From assembly GCF_003989515.1 (NCBI RefSeq), contig NZ_RBLU01000002.1, positions 17,749-81,748 of the forward strand: DNA of 64,000 bases, in the 5' to 3' direction. This document shows, piece after piece, positions 19,132-23,259 of this stretch (its first letter is position 1; each line of letters starts with the position of its first letter). The notes under the pieces were generated by a model. The model searched no databases. It worked only from the letters and a program-made list of their open reading frames with translations, and was not told the DNA's origin. Both the position numbers and the translations under genes were made by a program. The DNA comes from Curtobacterium sp. HSID17257 (lineage in GTDB: Bacteria; Actinomycetota; Actinomycetes; Actinomycetales; Microbacteriaceae).

Positions 19132-19638
19132 ATGGTCGAGTCGAGCACTGCCGGTGTTGTCGTGGTCGGTGTGCAGTCCGGGCAGGGGCACGACGTCGTC
19201 GGTGTCGCGGCTGCCGTCGCTGAACGCTTCAGCGCCCGCCTGGTGTGTGTGGTCGTCGATCCGGCGCTGCTGTCAGCGGGGGTGCGTGCGGACGGGTCGG
19301 AGATCATCGAACCGATCGACCCGGACACGGCGGACAGCGACCCGCAGCAGCTCCCCGACGAAGACATGCGGGTCATCAGAGATCTTGCTGCGGCGCGATC
19401 GGTCGACGTGGACTTCGTCTCCCGCGTCGGGGACCCGAGTCACGCACTCGCTGCGGTGGCTGAGGAACGTGACGCGGTGATGATCGTCGTCGGATCCCAG
19501 GCTGGCCGACGCCGGATAGCGGAACTGCTCACCGGGTCCGTCGCCGCGCACCTGACGCATCAGCAGCACCGGCCGATACTGGTCGTCCCGCACGACCCGG
19601 TCGGCGCCACCGTCCTCCTCCCGTCGGAAGCCCCGTGA
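19132..19638 (+). CDS. Universal stress protein (UspA family)
   Basis: 168 residues, single Usp domain. The C-terminal nucleotide-binding motif is VGSQAGRRRIAELLTGSVAAHL (about 122-143), the G-x2-G-x9-GS type seen in ATP-binding Usp proteins; the N-terminus VVVVGVQSG is the first strand. It is the first gene of the fluoride-associated operon and overlaps the phosphoglycerate mutase gene by GTGA. Usp genes are known neighbours of fluoride-responsive genes, though their biochemical role is unclear. Translation is probably gated by the leader hairpin. Confidence 0.88.
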   Translation: MVESSTAGVVVVGVQSGQGHDVVGVAAAVAERFSARLVCVVVDPALLSAGVRADGSEIIEPIDPDTADSDPQQLPDEDMRVIRDLAAARSVDVDFVSRVGDPSHALAAVAEERDAVMIVVGSQAGRRRIAELLTGSVAAHLTHQQHRPILVVPHDPVGATVLLPSEAP

Positions 19639-20381
19639 CGGGCATGCTGACGCTCCTGCGGCATGGGGAGAGCACCGCGAACGAAGCCGGCACCTTCACC
19701 GGGCTCCTCGACGTCCCGCTCACGCACCGCGGCGAACGGCAAGCATCCGCAGCCGGACAGCTCCTCCGGTCGAACCACATCACGCCGGACGTCGTGGTCA
19801 CCTCCACATTGCGCCGTGCCGTCCGCACCGCCGAACTGGTCTGCGACGCCCTCGGGACACAGCTGCCCACGGAAGCGGTGTGGCAGCTCAACGAACGCAA
19901 CTACGGTGCCCTGACCGGGATGACGAAGACCGACGCCCGTCGGATGCTCGGTGACGACGAGTACGTGCGGCTCCGCAGGTCCCGTACCGGCACACCGCCA
20001 CCGATGTCGCTGCACCTGTGGGAGGAACTGCGGTCGAGCTCCGCGCTGCGCGGCCTGCCCGACGGCGCCCTCCGACGCACCGAGGCACTCTCGGACGTCA
20101 TCAAGCGGGTCCGCCCCGTCTTGCACGACCGGCTCCTGCCGATGGTGCGGTCAGGGCGGAGCGTCCTCGTCGTCGCGCACGGGAACTCGCTCCGCGCACT
20201 CTGCGCATGCATCGACGACCTCACCGACCCGGAGCTCGAGCAGCTCAACCTGCCGACCGGGCAACCCGTGCAGTACCACCTCGCCCCGACGGGTGCTCTC
20301 GTCCCGCGGGGTGGGGCGTTCCTGGATCCGGTAGCAGCACAGCACGCCGCGGCGCTGGTCGCGGCAGAAGGCGGAACATGA
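19635..20381 (+). CDS. gpmA: 2,3-bisphosphoglycerate-dependent phosphoglycerate mutase
   Basis: 248 residues, histidine phosphatase superfamily. LLRHGESTAN gives the phosphorylated His10, NERNYGALTGMTK is specific for dPGM rather than generic phosphatases, and VVAHGNSLRAL supplies the second His. It interconverts 3-phosphoglycerate and 2-phosphoglycerate, the step before enolase, which is also in this operon. GTG start overlaps the upstream stop (GTGA); a second possible start is the ATG at 19644. The C-terminal ~25 residues are Ala-rich. Probably a second copy beyond a housekeeping gene. Confidence 0.9.
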   Translation: MTGMLTLLRHGESTANEAGTFTGLLDVPLTHRGERQASAAGQLLRSNHITPDVVVTSTLRRAVRTAELVCDALGTQLPTEAVWQLNERNYGALTGMTKTDARRMLGDDEYVRLRRSRTGTPPPMSLHLWEELRSSSALRGLPDGALRRTEALSDVIKRVRPVLHDRLLPMVRSGRSVLVVAHGNSLRALCACIDDLTDPELEQLNLPTGQPVQYHLAPTGALVPRGGAFLDPVAAQHAAALVAAEGGT

Positions 20382-20881
20382 CCACCCGAACGGACACCCC
20401 GATGCCCGACGACCAGCTCCCTCCCGACCCGGACGTCGACGTCTCCGACCCGGCAACGACCATGCGGCCGGTGCATCTGCGGTGGCGGTACGTCGGCCTC
20501 GTCGCCGTCGGTGGGGCCGGCGGTACTGCCCTCCGCGACGTCATCAGTAGCGTGCTCCCTGCCGATGGCGGGGTGAGTTGGTCGATCTTCTGGATCAACA
20601 TCACCGGGGCGCTGGCCCTCGGTGTGCTGTTGGAAGCGCTCGCGCACCGTGGGCCCGATGCCGGTCGCCGGAGGGTGCTGCGGCTGCTCCTCGGGACAGG
20701 GGTCCTCGGCGGGTTCACCACCTACAGCACCCTCGCCGAGTCCACCGCCGCCCTGTTCCTCGACGGCCACGGCCTCGCTGGCACCGGCTACGCGCTCCTC
20801 ACTGTCCTATCCGGCGCGATCGCGACCGCCTGCGGTCTCGTCGTCGCCGGCTGGTTCCGTCCCCGAACGGAGGAAGCATGA
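20378..20881 (+). CDS. crcB: CrcB/Fluc fluoride channel, first subunit
   Basis: 167 residues. After a ~35-residue Asp/Pro-rich N-terminus come four transmembrane helices with Fluc motifs: GGAGGTALRDVI, FWINITGALALG and GVLGGFTTYSTLAES, the last containing the Phe/Thr/Ser track that conducts fluoride. The ATG at 20378 overlaps the mutase stop and the gene overlaps the second crcB by ATGA. Tandem paired genes commonly encode heteromeric dual-topology pairs. Its extended hydrophilic N-terminus distinguishes it from its partner. Confidence 0.93.
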   Translation: MTTRTDTPMPDDQLPPDPDVDVSDPATTMRPVHLRWRYVGLVAVGGAGGTALRDVISSVLPADGGVSWSIFWINITGALALGVLLEALAHRGPDAGRRRVLRLLLGTGVLGGFTTYSTLAESTAALFLDGHGLAGTGYALLTVLSGAIATACGLVVAGWFRPRTEEA

Positions 20882-21249
20882 ACGCCGCCCTCATCGTCGT
20901 CGTCGCCCTCGGTGGCGGTGCCGGCGCTGCCGGTCGGTTCCTCCTCGACGGGCTGATCAACACCGGCCGGGAGTTCCGGCTCCCCGTCGGCACGCTGACG
21001 ATCAACATCACCGGGTCGCTGCTGCTGGGGATCATCGTCGGCGCCGCCACGCACCTCGGCGCGGTGCCGGTCGCGGTCCTCGGCACCGGGGTGATGGGCG
21101 GCTACACCACGTTCAGCACCGCCAGCTTCGAAACCGTCCGCCTCGCCCGCAGCGGACGGATCACCGCCGCCGCGATCAACGGTCTCGGAATGCTCGTCGT
21201 CTCCGTCGCCGCCGCGACCGCCGGCATCCTCCTCGGCGGCACCCTGTGA
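20878..21249 (+). CDS. crcB: CrcB/Fluc fluoride channel, second subunit
   Basis: 123 residues, the usual Fluc length, four transmembrane helices. Motifs GGGAGAAGRFLLDG, TLTINITGSLLLG and GVMGGYTTFSTASFE are intact. The GxxxR Arg, the NITG Asn and the TTFST track support an active channel exporting fluoride. ATG 20878 overlaps the first crcB stop, so translational coupling should give balanced amounts of the two subunits. Confidence 0.94.
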   Translation: MNAALIVVVALGGGAGAAGRFLLDGLINTGREFRLPVGTLTINITGSLLLGIIVGAATHLGAVPVAVLGTGVMGGYTTFSTASFETVRLARSGRITAAAINGLGMLVVSVAAATAGILLGGTL

Positions 21250-21801: not shown

Positions 21802-21861
21802 CCGCGGGGAGGCACTGGCGCAGAGTGATCGCCAGCAGGTCGTCCCTCCGCCTCCCCGCGG
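21802..21861 (+). terminator. Structured ppa-eno intercistronic region
   Basis: A 12-bp perfect stem, CCGCGGGGAGGC (21802-21813) with GCCTCCCCGCGG (21850-21861), encloses a smaller CTGGCG/CGCCAG stem (21815-21820 with 21830-21835). There is no U-tract. It could attenuate transcription into eno or act as an mRNA processing or stability element. Confidence 0.5.
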
Positions 21862-21924
21862 CTTCCCCTTCCAACCACAGACCAGCTCGACGCATGACCC
21901 GAACCGAACCGAAGGAGCGTCACC

Positions 21925-23259
21925 ATGAACGACTACATCAGCGGCATCCACCACCACGGAGCCCATCAGGGTGAGTACGTCACCCACCACGACCACCCCG
22001 TCACCATCGACGCCGTCCACGGCGCCCGCATCCTCGACTCCCGCGGCTACCCGACCGTCCGCGTGTCCCTCGAGCTCGACGACGGCCGCACCGTCACCGG
22101 GGACGCCCCCGCGGGCGCATCCACCGGCGCCCACGAAGCCGTCGAGCTCCGCGACGGCGGTTCCGCGTTCGGCGGCCGCGACGTCACCCAGGCGCTCCAC
22201 CTGATCGACACCGACATCTCAGGGCTCCTCACCGGCCGGTCGTGGTCGGCGATCGGGCAGGTCGACGCCGCCCTTGCCGAACTCGACGGCACCACCGGGT
22301 ACCGCCGGCTCGGCGCGAACAGCGTTGTCGCCACCTCAATCGCCGCATCCAGGGCCCTCGCCCATGCCGCGGACCTCCCGCTCTGGCAGTGGATCGCTGA
22401 GATCACCGGCTCGACGCCGCGGATGCCGGTCCCGCACTTCAACGTCCTCAACGGCGGCGCGCACGCAGCGAACGAGCTGGACTTCCAGGAGTTCATGATC
22501 GCTCCCGTCAACGCAGGCTCGATGGCAGACGCCGTCCGAATCGGCGCAGACGTGTACCACGCTCTCGCGGCGCTGGTTCGGGACCGGTTCGGCAGCCTCG
22601 GCCTCGGCGACGAGGGCGGTTTCGCACCGTCGATCGCTGCGCCCGAGGAAGCGCTCGACCTGCTCGTCGACGCGATCCGTACCGCCGGCTACGAGCCGGG
22701 CGTCGATCAGGTGGCGATCGCGCTCGATCCGGCCGCGAACGAGTTCTCCCAGGGCGACGGCTCCTACCGGGTGCTCAACGACAGCCTCGACCGGGACGGG
22801 CTGGTCGACTACTACCGGCACCTCATCGACACGTATCCGATCCGGAGCATCGAAGACGGGTTCGCGGAAGACGACCATGAGGGGTTCCGCCGCATGCAAG
22901 CGGCGCTCGGCGACCGGATCCAGATCGTCGGCGACGACCTCTACGTCACCGACCCACAGCGGATCCGCGACGGCGGCGAGCAGCAGCTGACGAACGCGGC
23001 ACTGATCAAGCCGAACCAGATCGGGACCGTCTCCCAGACCCTCGGCGCGATCGCCACCGCCAAGAGCATCGGGATGGCCAGCATGGTCTCCCACCGTTCT
23101 GGGGAGACCACGGACACGTTCATCGCGGACCTCGTTGTCGGGACCGGCACCGGGCAGATCAAGTCCGGCGCACCCGGCCGCGGGGAACGCGTCGCGAAGT
23201 ACAACCGGCTCACCGAGATCGCCGAGCAGCACCCGGAGCTGCCCTACGGACTGATCTGA
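21925..23259 (+). CDS. eno: Enolase, with His-rich N-terminal extension
   Basis: 444 residues. All hallmark segments are present: ILDSRGYPTV, APAGASTGAHEA, LDFQEFMI, GDEGGFAP, the Mg ligand in SIEDGF, GDDLYVT, KPNQIGTVSQT (catalytic Lys) and SHRSGET. It converts 2-phosphoglycerate to phosphoenolpyruvate. Fluoride with phosphate traps enolase, so this is presumably an extra or more tolerant copy. The ~25-residue N-terminal extension (HHHGAHQGEYVTHHDH) is not part of standard enolases. The 3' end overlaps the convergent LysR gene by 16 bp. Confidence 0.93.
   Translation: MNDYISGIHHHGAHQGEYVTHHDHPVTIDAVHGARILDSRGYPTVRVSLELDDGRTVTGDAPAGASTGAHEAVELRDGGSAFGGRDVTQALHLIDTDISGLLTGRSWSAIGQVDAALAELDGTTGYRRLGANSVVATSIAASRALAHAADLPLWQWIAEITGSTPRMPVPHFNVLNGGAHAANELDFQEFMIAPVNAGSMADAVRIGADVYHALAALVRDRFGSLGLGDEGGFAPSIAAPEEALDLLVDAIRTAGYEPGVDQVAIALDPAANEFSQGDGSYRVLNDSLDRDGLVDYYRHLIDTYPIRSIEDGFAEDDHEGFRRMQAALGDRIQIVGDDLYVTDPQRIRDGGEQQLTNAALIKPNQIGTVSQTLGAIATAKSIGMASMVSHRSGETTDTFIADLVVGTGTGQIKSGAPGRGERVAKYNRLTEIAEQHPELPYGLI

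Follow-up and report, generated by a model that had tools for sequence, protein, structure and literature searches.

A predicted riboswitch-controlled fluoride operon and a possible sulfite-tolerance cassette on a mobile transposon in Curtobacterium

Our analysis of a 64,000-nucleotide stretch from Curtobacterium sp. HSID17257 (contig NZ_RBLU01000002.1, referred to as the window in its full length) did reveal a six-gene fluoride operon consisting of usp, gpmA, crcB1, crcB2, ppa and eno. The operon forms one half of a transposon of 10,089 bases and is probably co-expressed under a predicted variant fluoride riboswitch; tolerance would arise from fluoride export together with enzyme dosage. On the same transposon we found genes for a LysR regulator, a TDT-family transporter and a uracil-DNA glycosylase (UDG) superfamily protein. 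With a probability of about 0.5 we read the whole element as an acid-gas tolerance transposon directed against hydrogen fluoride (HF), through riboswitch-controlled export and dosage, and against sulfur dioxide (SO2) and bisulfite, through a YeiE-like sensor, a TDT exporter and a dedicated UDG. In plant- and air-borne bacteria this pairing would have been assembled repeatedly on plasmids. The leader RNA would represent an Actinomycetota subclass of the fluoride riboswitch that is missed by Rfam. The operon type is already known; added here are the combination, the transposon and the leader variant, the latter not claimed as unpublished.

The initial annotation had described the six genes as one unidirectional group at positions 19132 to 23259, and open reading frames and profile searches agree with this on the plus strand:

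19132-19638, plus strand: usp, universal stress protein (PF00582)
19635-20381, plus strand: gpmA, 2,3-bisphosphoglycerate-dependent phosphoglycerate mutase (TIGR01258 above cut-off)
20378-20881, plus strand: crcB1, Fluc subunit (PF02537 above cut-off; TIGR00494 55.7 bits, below cut-off)
20878-21249, plus strand: crcB2, Fluc subunit (PF02537 above cut-off; TIGR00494 78.2 of 80.45 bits)
21297-21782, plus strand: ppa, family I inorganic pyrophosphatase (PF00719 above cut-off; annotation of the plasmid copy, 99.9% identical)
21925-23259, plus strand: eno, the second enolase of the genome (TIGR01060 480 bits, cut-off 300; enolase tree)

The PF02537 domain is present in both CrcB subunits, and both missed the equivalog cut-off of TIGR00494. 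The genes had also been described as joined mostly by start-stop overlaps. This holds for three of the five junctions, where 4-base overlaps occur if the longest open reading frames are taken (the annotation of the plasmid copy puts the starts of gpmA and crcB1 later), but not for ppa and eno, which follow gaps of 47 bases after crcB2 and 142 bases after ppa, respectively. The conserved unit exceeds the operon and includes a leader RNA on the 5′ side and the LysR-TDT-UDG genes as well as transposition genes on the 3′ side.

By sequence comparison the operon is a variant of the fluoride operon type described from Enterobacter cloacae FRM. Excerpts of the report on this strain give the gene order ppaC-uspA-eno-gpmA-crcB-orf5249, an 8- to 177-fold induction of the six genes by fluoride, and a contribution of the operon genes to fluoride tolerance as seen in knockout and complementation; they also state that inhibition of phosphoglycerate mutase by fluoride is unreported (PMC5533749). 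Common to both systems, as far as these excerpts go, are an exporter, enolase, phosphoglycerate mutase, pyrophosphatase, Usp and a leader riboswitch in one mobile cluster. Whereas the FRM operon is described there with one crcB, a family II pyrophosphatase and a canonical RF01734 riboswitch, the operon in the window has two crcB genes, a family I pyrophosphatase, a divergent leader, the adjoining LysR-TDT-UDG genes and a defined transposon around it.

The borders of the transposon (18894-28982) are given by inverted-repeat ends and a 6-base target duplication, and its transposition genes lie at the right end:

18888-18893, no strand: left target-site duplication CTGTCC, the same six bases as at 28983-28988
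18894-18941, no strand: left terminal inverted repeat, 48 nucleotides, 77% complementary to 28935-28982
26120-26722, plus strand: serine recombinase (PF00239)
26729-28123, plus strand: TniA-like DDE transposase (rve and Mu-transpos_C domains)
28120-28932, plus strand: TniB-like AAA ATPase (PF13401)
28935-28982, no strand: right terminal inverted repeat, pairing with 18894-18941
28983-28988, no strand: right target-site duplication CTGTCC, matching 18888-18893

The terminal pair is the longest inverted repeat within 18700-29200. Target duplications, picked out by eye from a comparison of ends and flanks, were found with 6-7 bases in four other copies as well (L148, L150, L196 and L197) and thus in five of five copies having both ends and flanks, with the plasmid copy of Micrococcus luteus set aside, at which the same comparison gave no target duplication. 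A further copy (L149) occupies an entire contig. Tn5053/Tn402-like elements are characterized by a recombinase, a DDE transposase, an AAA ATPase, terminal repeats and a 5-base duplication; gene types and terminal repeats of this kind are present here, whereas the duplications are 6-7 bases long. Among the other copies, the M. luteus plasmid contains a second copy of the right end (674 bases, L014:23762-24435) 3′ of the full copy, and an 8.2-kb copy (L148:5617-13847) has both ends and a 6-base duplication, with no match to the recombinase and transposase queries.

Across 10.1 kb the island is 99.8% identical to the M. luteus plasmid pSGAir0127, and across 7.9 kb it is 98.9% identical to a Tersicoccus contig. 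For the housekeeping enolase region the best piece showed identities of 86-94% to nine Curtobacterium genomes, 82-83% to Leifsonia and Microbacterium and 78% to Tersicoccus. Since the host matches Curtobacterium best and yet the island is almost identical to the Micrococcus and Tersicoccus copies, these identities indicate a recent transfer between families.

The second half of the transposon contains three genes between the operon and the transposition genes:

23244-24170, minus strand: LysR regulator, best NCBIfam model YeiE (NF040889, 145 bits, cut-off 480), start as in the plasmid copy
24241-25398, plus strand: TDT/SLAC1-family transporter (PF03595, 5e-84; TIGR00816, 158 of 237 bits)
25395-25979, plus strand: UDG-superfamily protein (PF03167, 23.9 of 24.3 bits; predicted UDG fold)

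The LysR gene is convergent to eno and divergent from the TDT and UDG genes, which overlap by four bases. The UDG protein just missed the gathering score of PF03167; its predicted structure (predicted local distance difference test, pLDDT, 85.5) had UdgX as best Foldseek match (E 1.3e-7, TM 0.67) and also matched a family 4 UDG. Single-sequence searches of the PDB gave mostly short TAL-effector matches for UDG and no match for TDT, and profile searches performed better for both. Of 15 close relatives (L017-L031), 13 have the trio of genes, and so do six of the eight family genomes that encode the operon enolase; an altered gene order is seen in two (L151, L152). Homologues of UDG with at least 41% identity occurred in 26 of 398 family genomes, to which a 38-residue fragment in genome G496 was not counted. 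TDT adjoins UDG in 25 of these 26 genomes, crcB or eno lies within the same stretch (up to 19 kb) in 15, and none of seven loci with distant UDG homologues has TDT, crcB or eno. Because of this reverse test we conclude from the gene neighborhoods that TDT-UDG is a unit of its own that has often settled beside fluoride genes. On plasmids of Pseudomonas, Erwinia and Xanthomonas a gene for a beta-propeller protein (lactonase/YncE-like) was found together with TDT-UDG (L100:11885-12877, L103:2543-3541 and L217:9861-10853).

Bisulfite converts cytosine to uracil, and Ssu1 of yeast is a sulfite pump of the TDT type. A gene for a SorA-type sulfite dehydrogenase was located within 3 kb of TDT in 15 of the best 60 of 112 TDT records (records for TDT, SorA and CLC were matched by eye at the best place per record, using 60 of 112, 57 of 57 and 60 of 113 rows, respectively). 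Ten of the 15 are sphingomonads and none is actinobacterial among the matches listed; with respect to the SorA cut-off of 600 bits, the Massilia protein passes (644) and the Sphingobium protein fails (525). YeiH-family genes with PF03601 domains, below the TIGR00698 cut-off, are found nearby in Massilia and Paenarthrobacter, and the UDG of E. marmotae has asrABC as its neighbor. One genome of the family, L203, has a sulfite-oxidase-like gene (31% identity) after the fluoride operon and then UDG and a YeiH-like gene with its LysR; no TDT is present there. The YeiE structure 8sbh was among the top PDB matches of the window LysR, which is 42% identical to the YeiH-adjacent regulator in Paenarthrobacter. 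In excerpts of a study on Salmonella, YeiE is described to bind sulfite and YeiE-YeiH to confer sulfite resistance (PMC12880088). The arrangement in the window is similar in that a YeiE-group LysR is divergent from a membrane-protein gene, and differs in that TDT replaces YeiH, that UDG is added, and that the regulator is only distantly YeiE-like. Because TDT occurs near SorA, YeiH genes lie nearby and the LysR is related to YeiE, the three genes might form a sulfite-tolerance module, a prediction to which we give about even odds.

Several observations weigh against a sulfite function. The window LysR missed the NF040889 equivalog cut-off by far; the window has no sulfite enzyme adjoining the cassette, and L203 is the sole actinobacterial locus with one; TDT family members are listed as malate carriers, and three records have malate dehydrogenase genes in the vicinity of TDT; and in 11 of the 26 UDG carriers the fetched stretch contains neither crcB nor eno. 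Among the papers listed in our literature searches, none tied a bacterial UDG or TDT to sulfite. Excerpts on Pantoea vagans R4′ describe a mobile fragment with crcB, gpmA, eno, uspA, ppaC, mae1 and ung, and thus a fluoride set likewise accompanied by a gene for a uracil-DNA glycosylase and by mae1, which is of the TDT type judging from its family; mae1 is filed there under sugar metabolism and ung under DNA repair, and the excerpts contain no sulfite reading (PMC5971314).

It is possible, although we consider it less probable than a sulfite function, that the three genes form part of the fluoride response. In that case TDT would carry malate or some other acid that feeds metabolism beyond the enolase block, and UDG would serve in general repair. 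The malate dehydrogenase genes and the 15 UDG carriers with crcB or eno alongside are consistent with this, and so are CLC-type (predicted fluoride) exporters within 10 kb of TDT in eight of the best 60 of 112 TDT records (best 60 of 113 CLC records) and MutS genes alongside other fluoride clusters, which occur as pairs in L033, L035, L040, L097 and L105. The 11 carriers with TDT and UDG together but without fluoride genes, the SorA neighbors of TDT and the affiliation of the regulator with the YeiE group argue for the sulfite module instead. Eight plasmid regions picked by UDG or TDT alone contained fluoride exporters in three cases (Agrobacterium, Sphingobium and Massilia); of the remaining five, a CLC of uncertain type is present in one, and no fluoride exporter was seen in the fetched flank of the other four.

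For the operon enzymes the initial annotation had suggested a genome search for second copies. In the assembly (3.35 Mb, 253 contigs, completeness listed as 100%) such copies were found, namely an enolase on contig C136 (48% identical to the operon eno), a family I pyrophosphatase on C197 (57% identical to ppa), a gpmA-like match on C189 (41% identical to gpmA) and a second crcB pair on C237. Because of these copies the operon enzymes are a spare set beside the housekeeping ones, and a reading of the six genes as housekeeping genes only is ruled out. The operon-type enolase was found with 63-100% identity in eight of 150 family genomes, in which all remaining matches to it were at most 50% identical among the matches listed. 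Among the 120 enolases of a tree, 37 of the 45 fluoride-cluster rows were placed in one supported clade of actinobacteria with 48 rows; a separate clade (support 97) was formed by 23 housekeeping enolases from the host family. Fluoride-cluster enolases of Pseudomonas/Klebsiella/Erwinia, of Listeria/Pediococcus and of alphaproteobacteria were placed elsewhere, and the starred branches force at least eight changes of the fluoride-cluster label, in a tree made by a quick method and with a label that varies with flank length (the reason why L106 received a negative score). Given this scatter and the number of label changes, enolase seems to have been recruited several times by fluoride clusters. 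The operon enolase also has a His-rich N-terminal extension of about 25 residues (21925-21999), with full-length alignment in the closest relatives.

The coupling of export with replacement or fluoride-tolerant enzymes had been proposed for this operon. Export plus spare copies is what we find as well; fluoride tolerance of the copies is another matter. All 12 enolase residues checked in the alignment, which we take to be catalytic or active-site residues, are unchanged, and the pyrophosphatase belongs to family I, which is the fluoride-sensitive type, so that extra dosage appears to be the better reading compared to fluoride-tolerant replacement. Excerpts of a 2024 review likewise read the enolase response as production of more enzyme (PMC11139923). 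Insensitive replacements, quality rather than quantity, would fit the separate clade of operon enolases, for which 28 alignment columns are fixed differently from the housekeeping enolases of the host family, and second-shell effects would be invisible at the sequence level. With the active-site residues kept, and a family I enzyme in place of the family II type used by E. cloacae FRM, we consider such replacements improbable. The description of the operon as a metabolic bypass finds no support, as the genes duplicate steps rather than go round them.

Upstream of usp the window encodes a leader RNA with two predicted elements:

19031-19092, plus strand: predicted variant fluoride riboswitch aptamer with P1, P2 and pseudoknot (92.7 bits with our covariance model R1, which includes the window; pairing in 23 leaders)
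19083-19124, plus strand: stem predicted to mask the usp ribosome-binding site (one arm at 19083-19093, the other at 19114-19124; 8-11 base pairs in each of the 23 leaders examined)

The leader is conserved across 24 distinct sequences, of which 23 were aligned (L025 was left out). Its architecture comprises a P1 hairpin, whose 8-base loop is GUGGGGCU, followed by a P2 hairpin and, on the 3′ side, the strand AGUCCC, which is able to pair with GGGGCU. Pairing is intact in 99.5% of 391 cells in the alignment vs 24-49% when slid, and changes on both sides occurred in 20 cells vs a shuffled mean of 6.0. The AGUCCC strand continues into CCCUAUCUC, which pairs with the region of the usp ribosome-binding site, and it is plausible that the leader acts as a translational switch. 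An extra hairpin 5′ of P1 was strong in a few leaders and was rejected, with most of the 23 no better than shuffled controls.

The model R1 represents the 62-base core and was built from 15 distinct cores. It matched 23 of 396 phylum genomes at E ≤0.001 and 76 of 398 family genomes, from which 29 fetched loci were inspected. Strong matches (E ≤2.5e-7, 37 loci fetched) were counted apart from weak ones (E ≥3.7e-6, 16 loci). In 36 of the 37 strong loci usp (21), crcB (14) or eno (1) comes first within 700 nucleotides downstream on the same strand, compared to one of the 16 weak loci with any of these genes in that distance. Outside the family, all seven strong loci (L223-L229) precede fluoride genes, five of them crcB-DUF190-crcB. 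A pseudoknot pair U-A is changed to C-G in two distant copies. Six loci with a usp homologue had no motif within 230 bases upstream of usp; in two of them (L035 and L039) R1 finds it farther upstream. In one genome four R1 matches lie inside 5 kb (L154:3829-8518), and a strong match in that region (L265) has no counted fluoride gene within 700 nucleotides.

The aptamer resembles RF01734, the fluoride riboswitch model of Rfam, in its hairpin with an 8-base loop, its second hairpin, the pseudoknot between loop and 3′ strand and its position before crcB and eno. It differs in the first loop base, which is G here and A in the RF01734 consensus and in L042, and in that the window leader receives no RF01734 score. 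R1 also matched canonical RF01734 sites, namely three of the four present in L042 and the single one of L231, and the idea of a wholly new riboswitch class was dropped accordingly. Because loop and pseudoknot are shared with RF01734, we predict the leader to be a divergent branch of the fluoride riboswitch, which would bind fluoride.

Some results count against this prediction. The Rfam search detected no fluoride riboswitch in the window, for which reason a canonical one was rejected, and RF01734 gave no score for the leader even in a 141-base search; the search does work as a tool, since it found RF01734 in seven of nine plasmid clusters and three of eight actinobacterial loci. At the R1 site the RF01734 cut-off was reached in none of 19 strong loci tested, with sub-threshold scores of 19.8 and 22.9 bits at two of them. 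Only four pairs showed changes on both sides, a number reached by 91 of 500 shuffles, since there is little variation in the core. Ten of 30 distinct strong matches have a C-A mismatch at one P1 pair, and many of the strong loci are closely related to R1's own sequences; some of these 37 loci, including the window, supplied the model. The lacking Rfam match and the invariant core would also be expected if the RNA were real and sensed something else, or were a mere translational attenuator. In view of the fluoride genes behind nearly all strong matches and of the R1 matches to canonical sites, we regard another ligand or simple attenuation as rather unlikely and prefer a fluoride-responsive leader.

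Transposons do carry passengers, but that the glycolysis genes are such passengers with no fluoride function is very improbable, as the same gene set is found again, along with fluoride exporters and riboswitches, in distinct lineages and as the E. cloacae operon was, according to the excerpts, tested by experiment (PMC5533749).

Fluoride enters the cell as HF and inhibits enolase and family I pyrophosphatase, as stated in the excerpts of the review (PMC11139923). In the mechanism that we propose from there, two steps are needed for the operon to be switched on. The leader RNA would bind fluoride and thereby free the ribosome-binding site of usp, with the six genes expressed from one presumed shared transcript. 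CrcB1 and CrcB2 are predicted to form one two-subunit Fluc channel for fluoride export, while the extra enolase, mutase and pyrophosphatase might restore flux by dosage. In the second half of the transposon, the YeiE-like LysR would switch on the TDT sulfite exporter and the UDG glycosylase, and UDG would remove uracil arising from deamination of cytosine by bisulfite.

Other features of the window were seen outside these two systems. Directly outside the left end of the transposon, an OLD-like AAA/TOPRIM nuclease is encoded (16573-18480, minus strand), which is a candidate phage-defence protein. Two adjacent frames at 15283-16473 (minus strand) resemble a broken IS30-type transposase, named by eye, and a weak Guanidine-III match was obtained at 23358 (20.5 of 36 bits).

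If our predictions are true, many actinobacterial fluoride genes would be under the control of riboswitches that are missed by the Rfam model, and the published estimate of about 15% of Fluc genes being riboswitch-regulated, as given in excerpts of the review, would rise (PMC11139923). The TDT family would become a candidate family of bacterial sulfite exporters, and there would be a chemical reason for the presence of the DNA-repair enzyme UDG within a sulfite cassette. HF and SO2 have common volcanic and industrial sources, and the combination of both gases is suggested to select for one mobile resistance unit.

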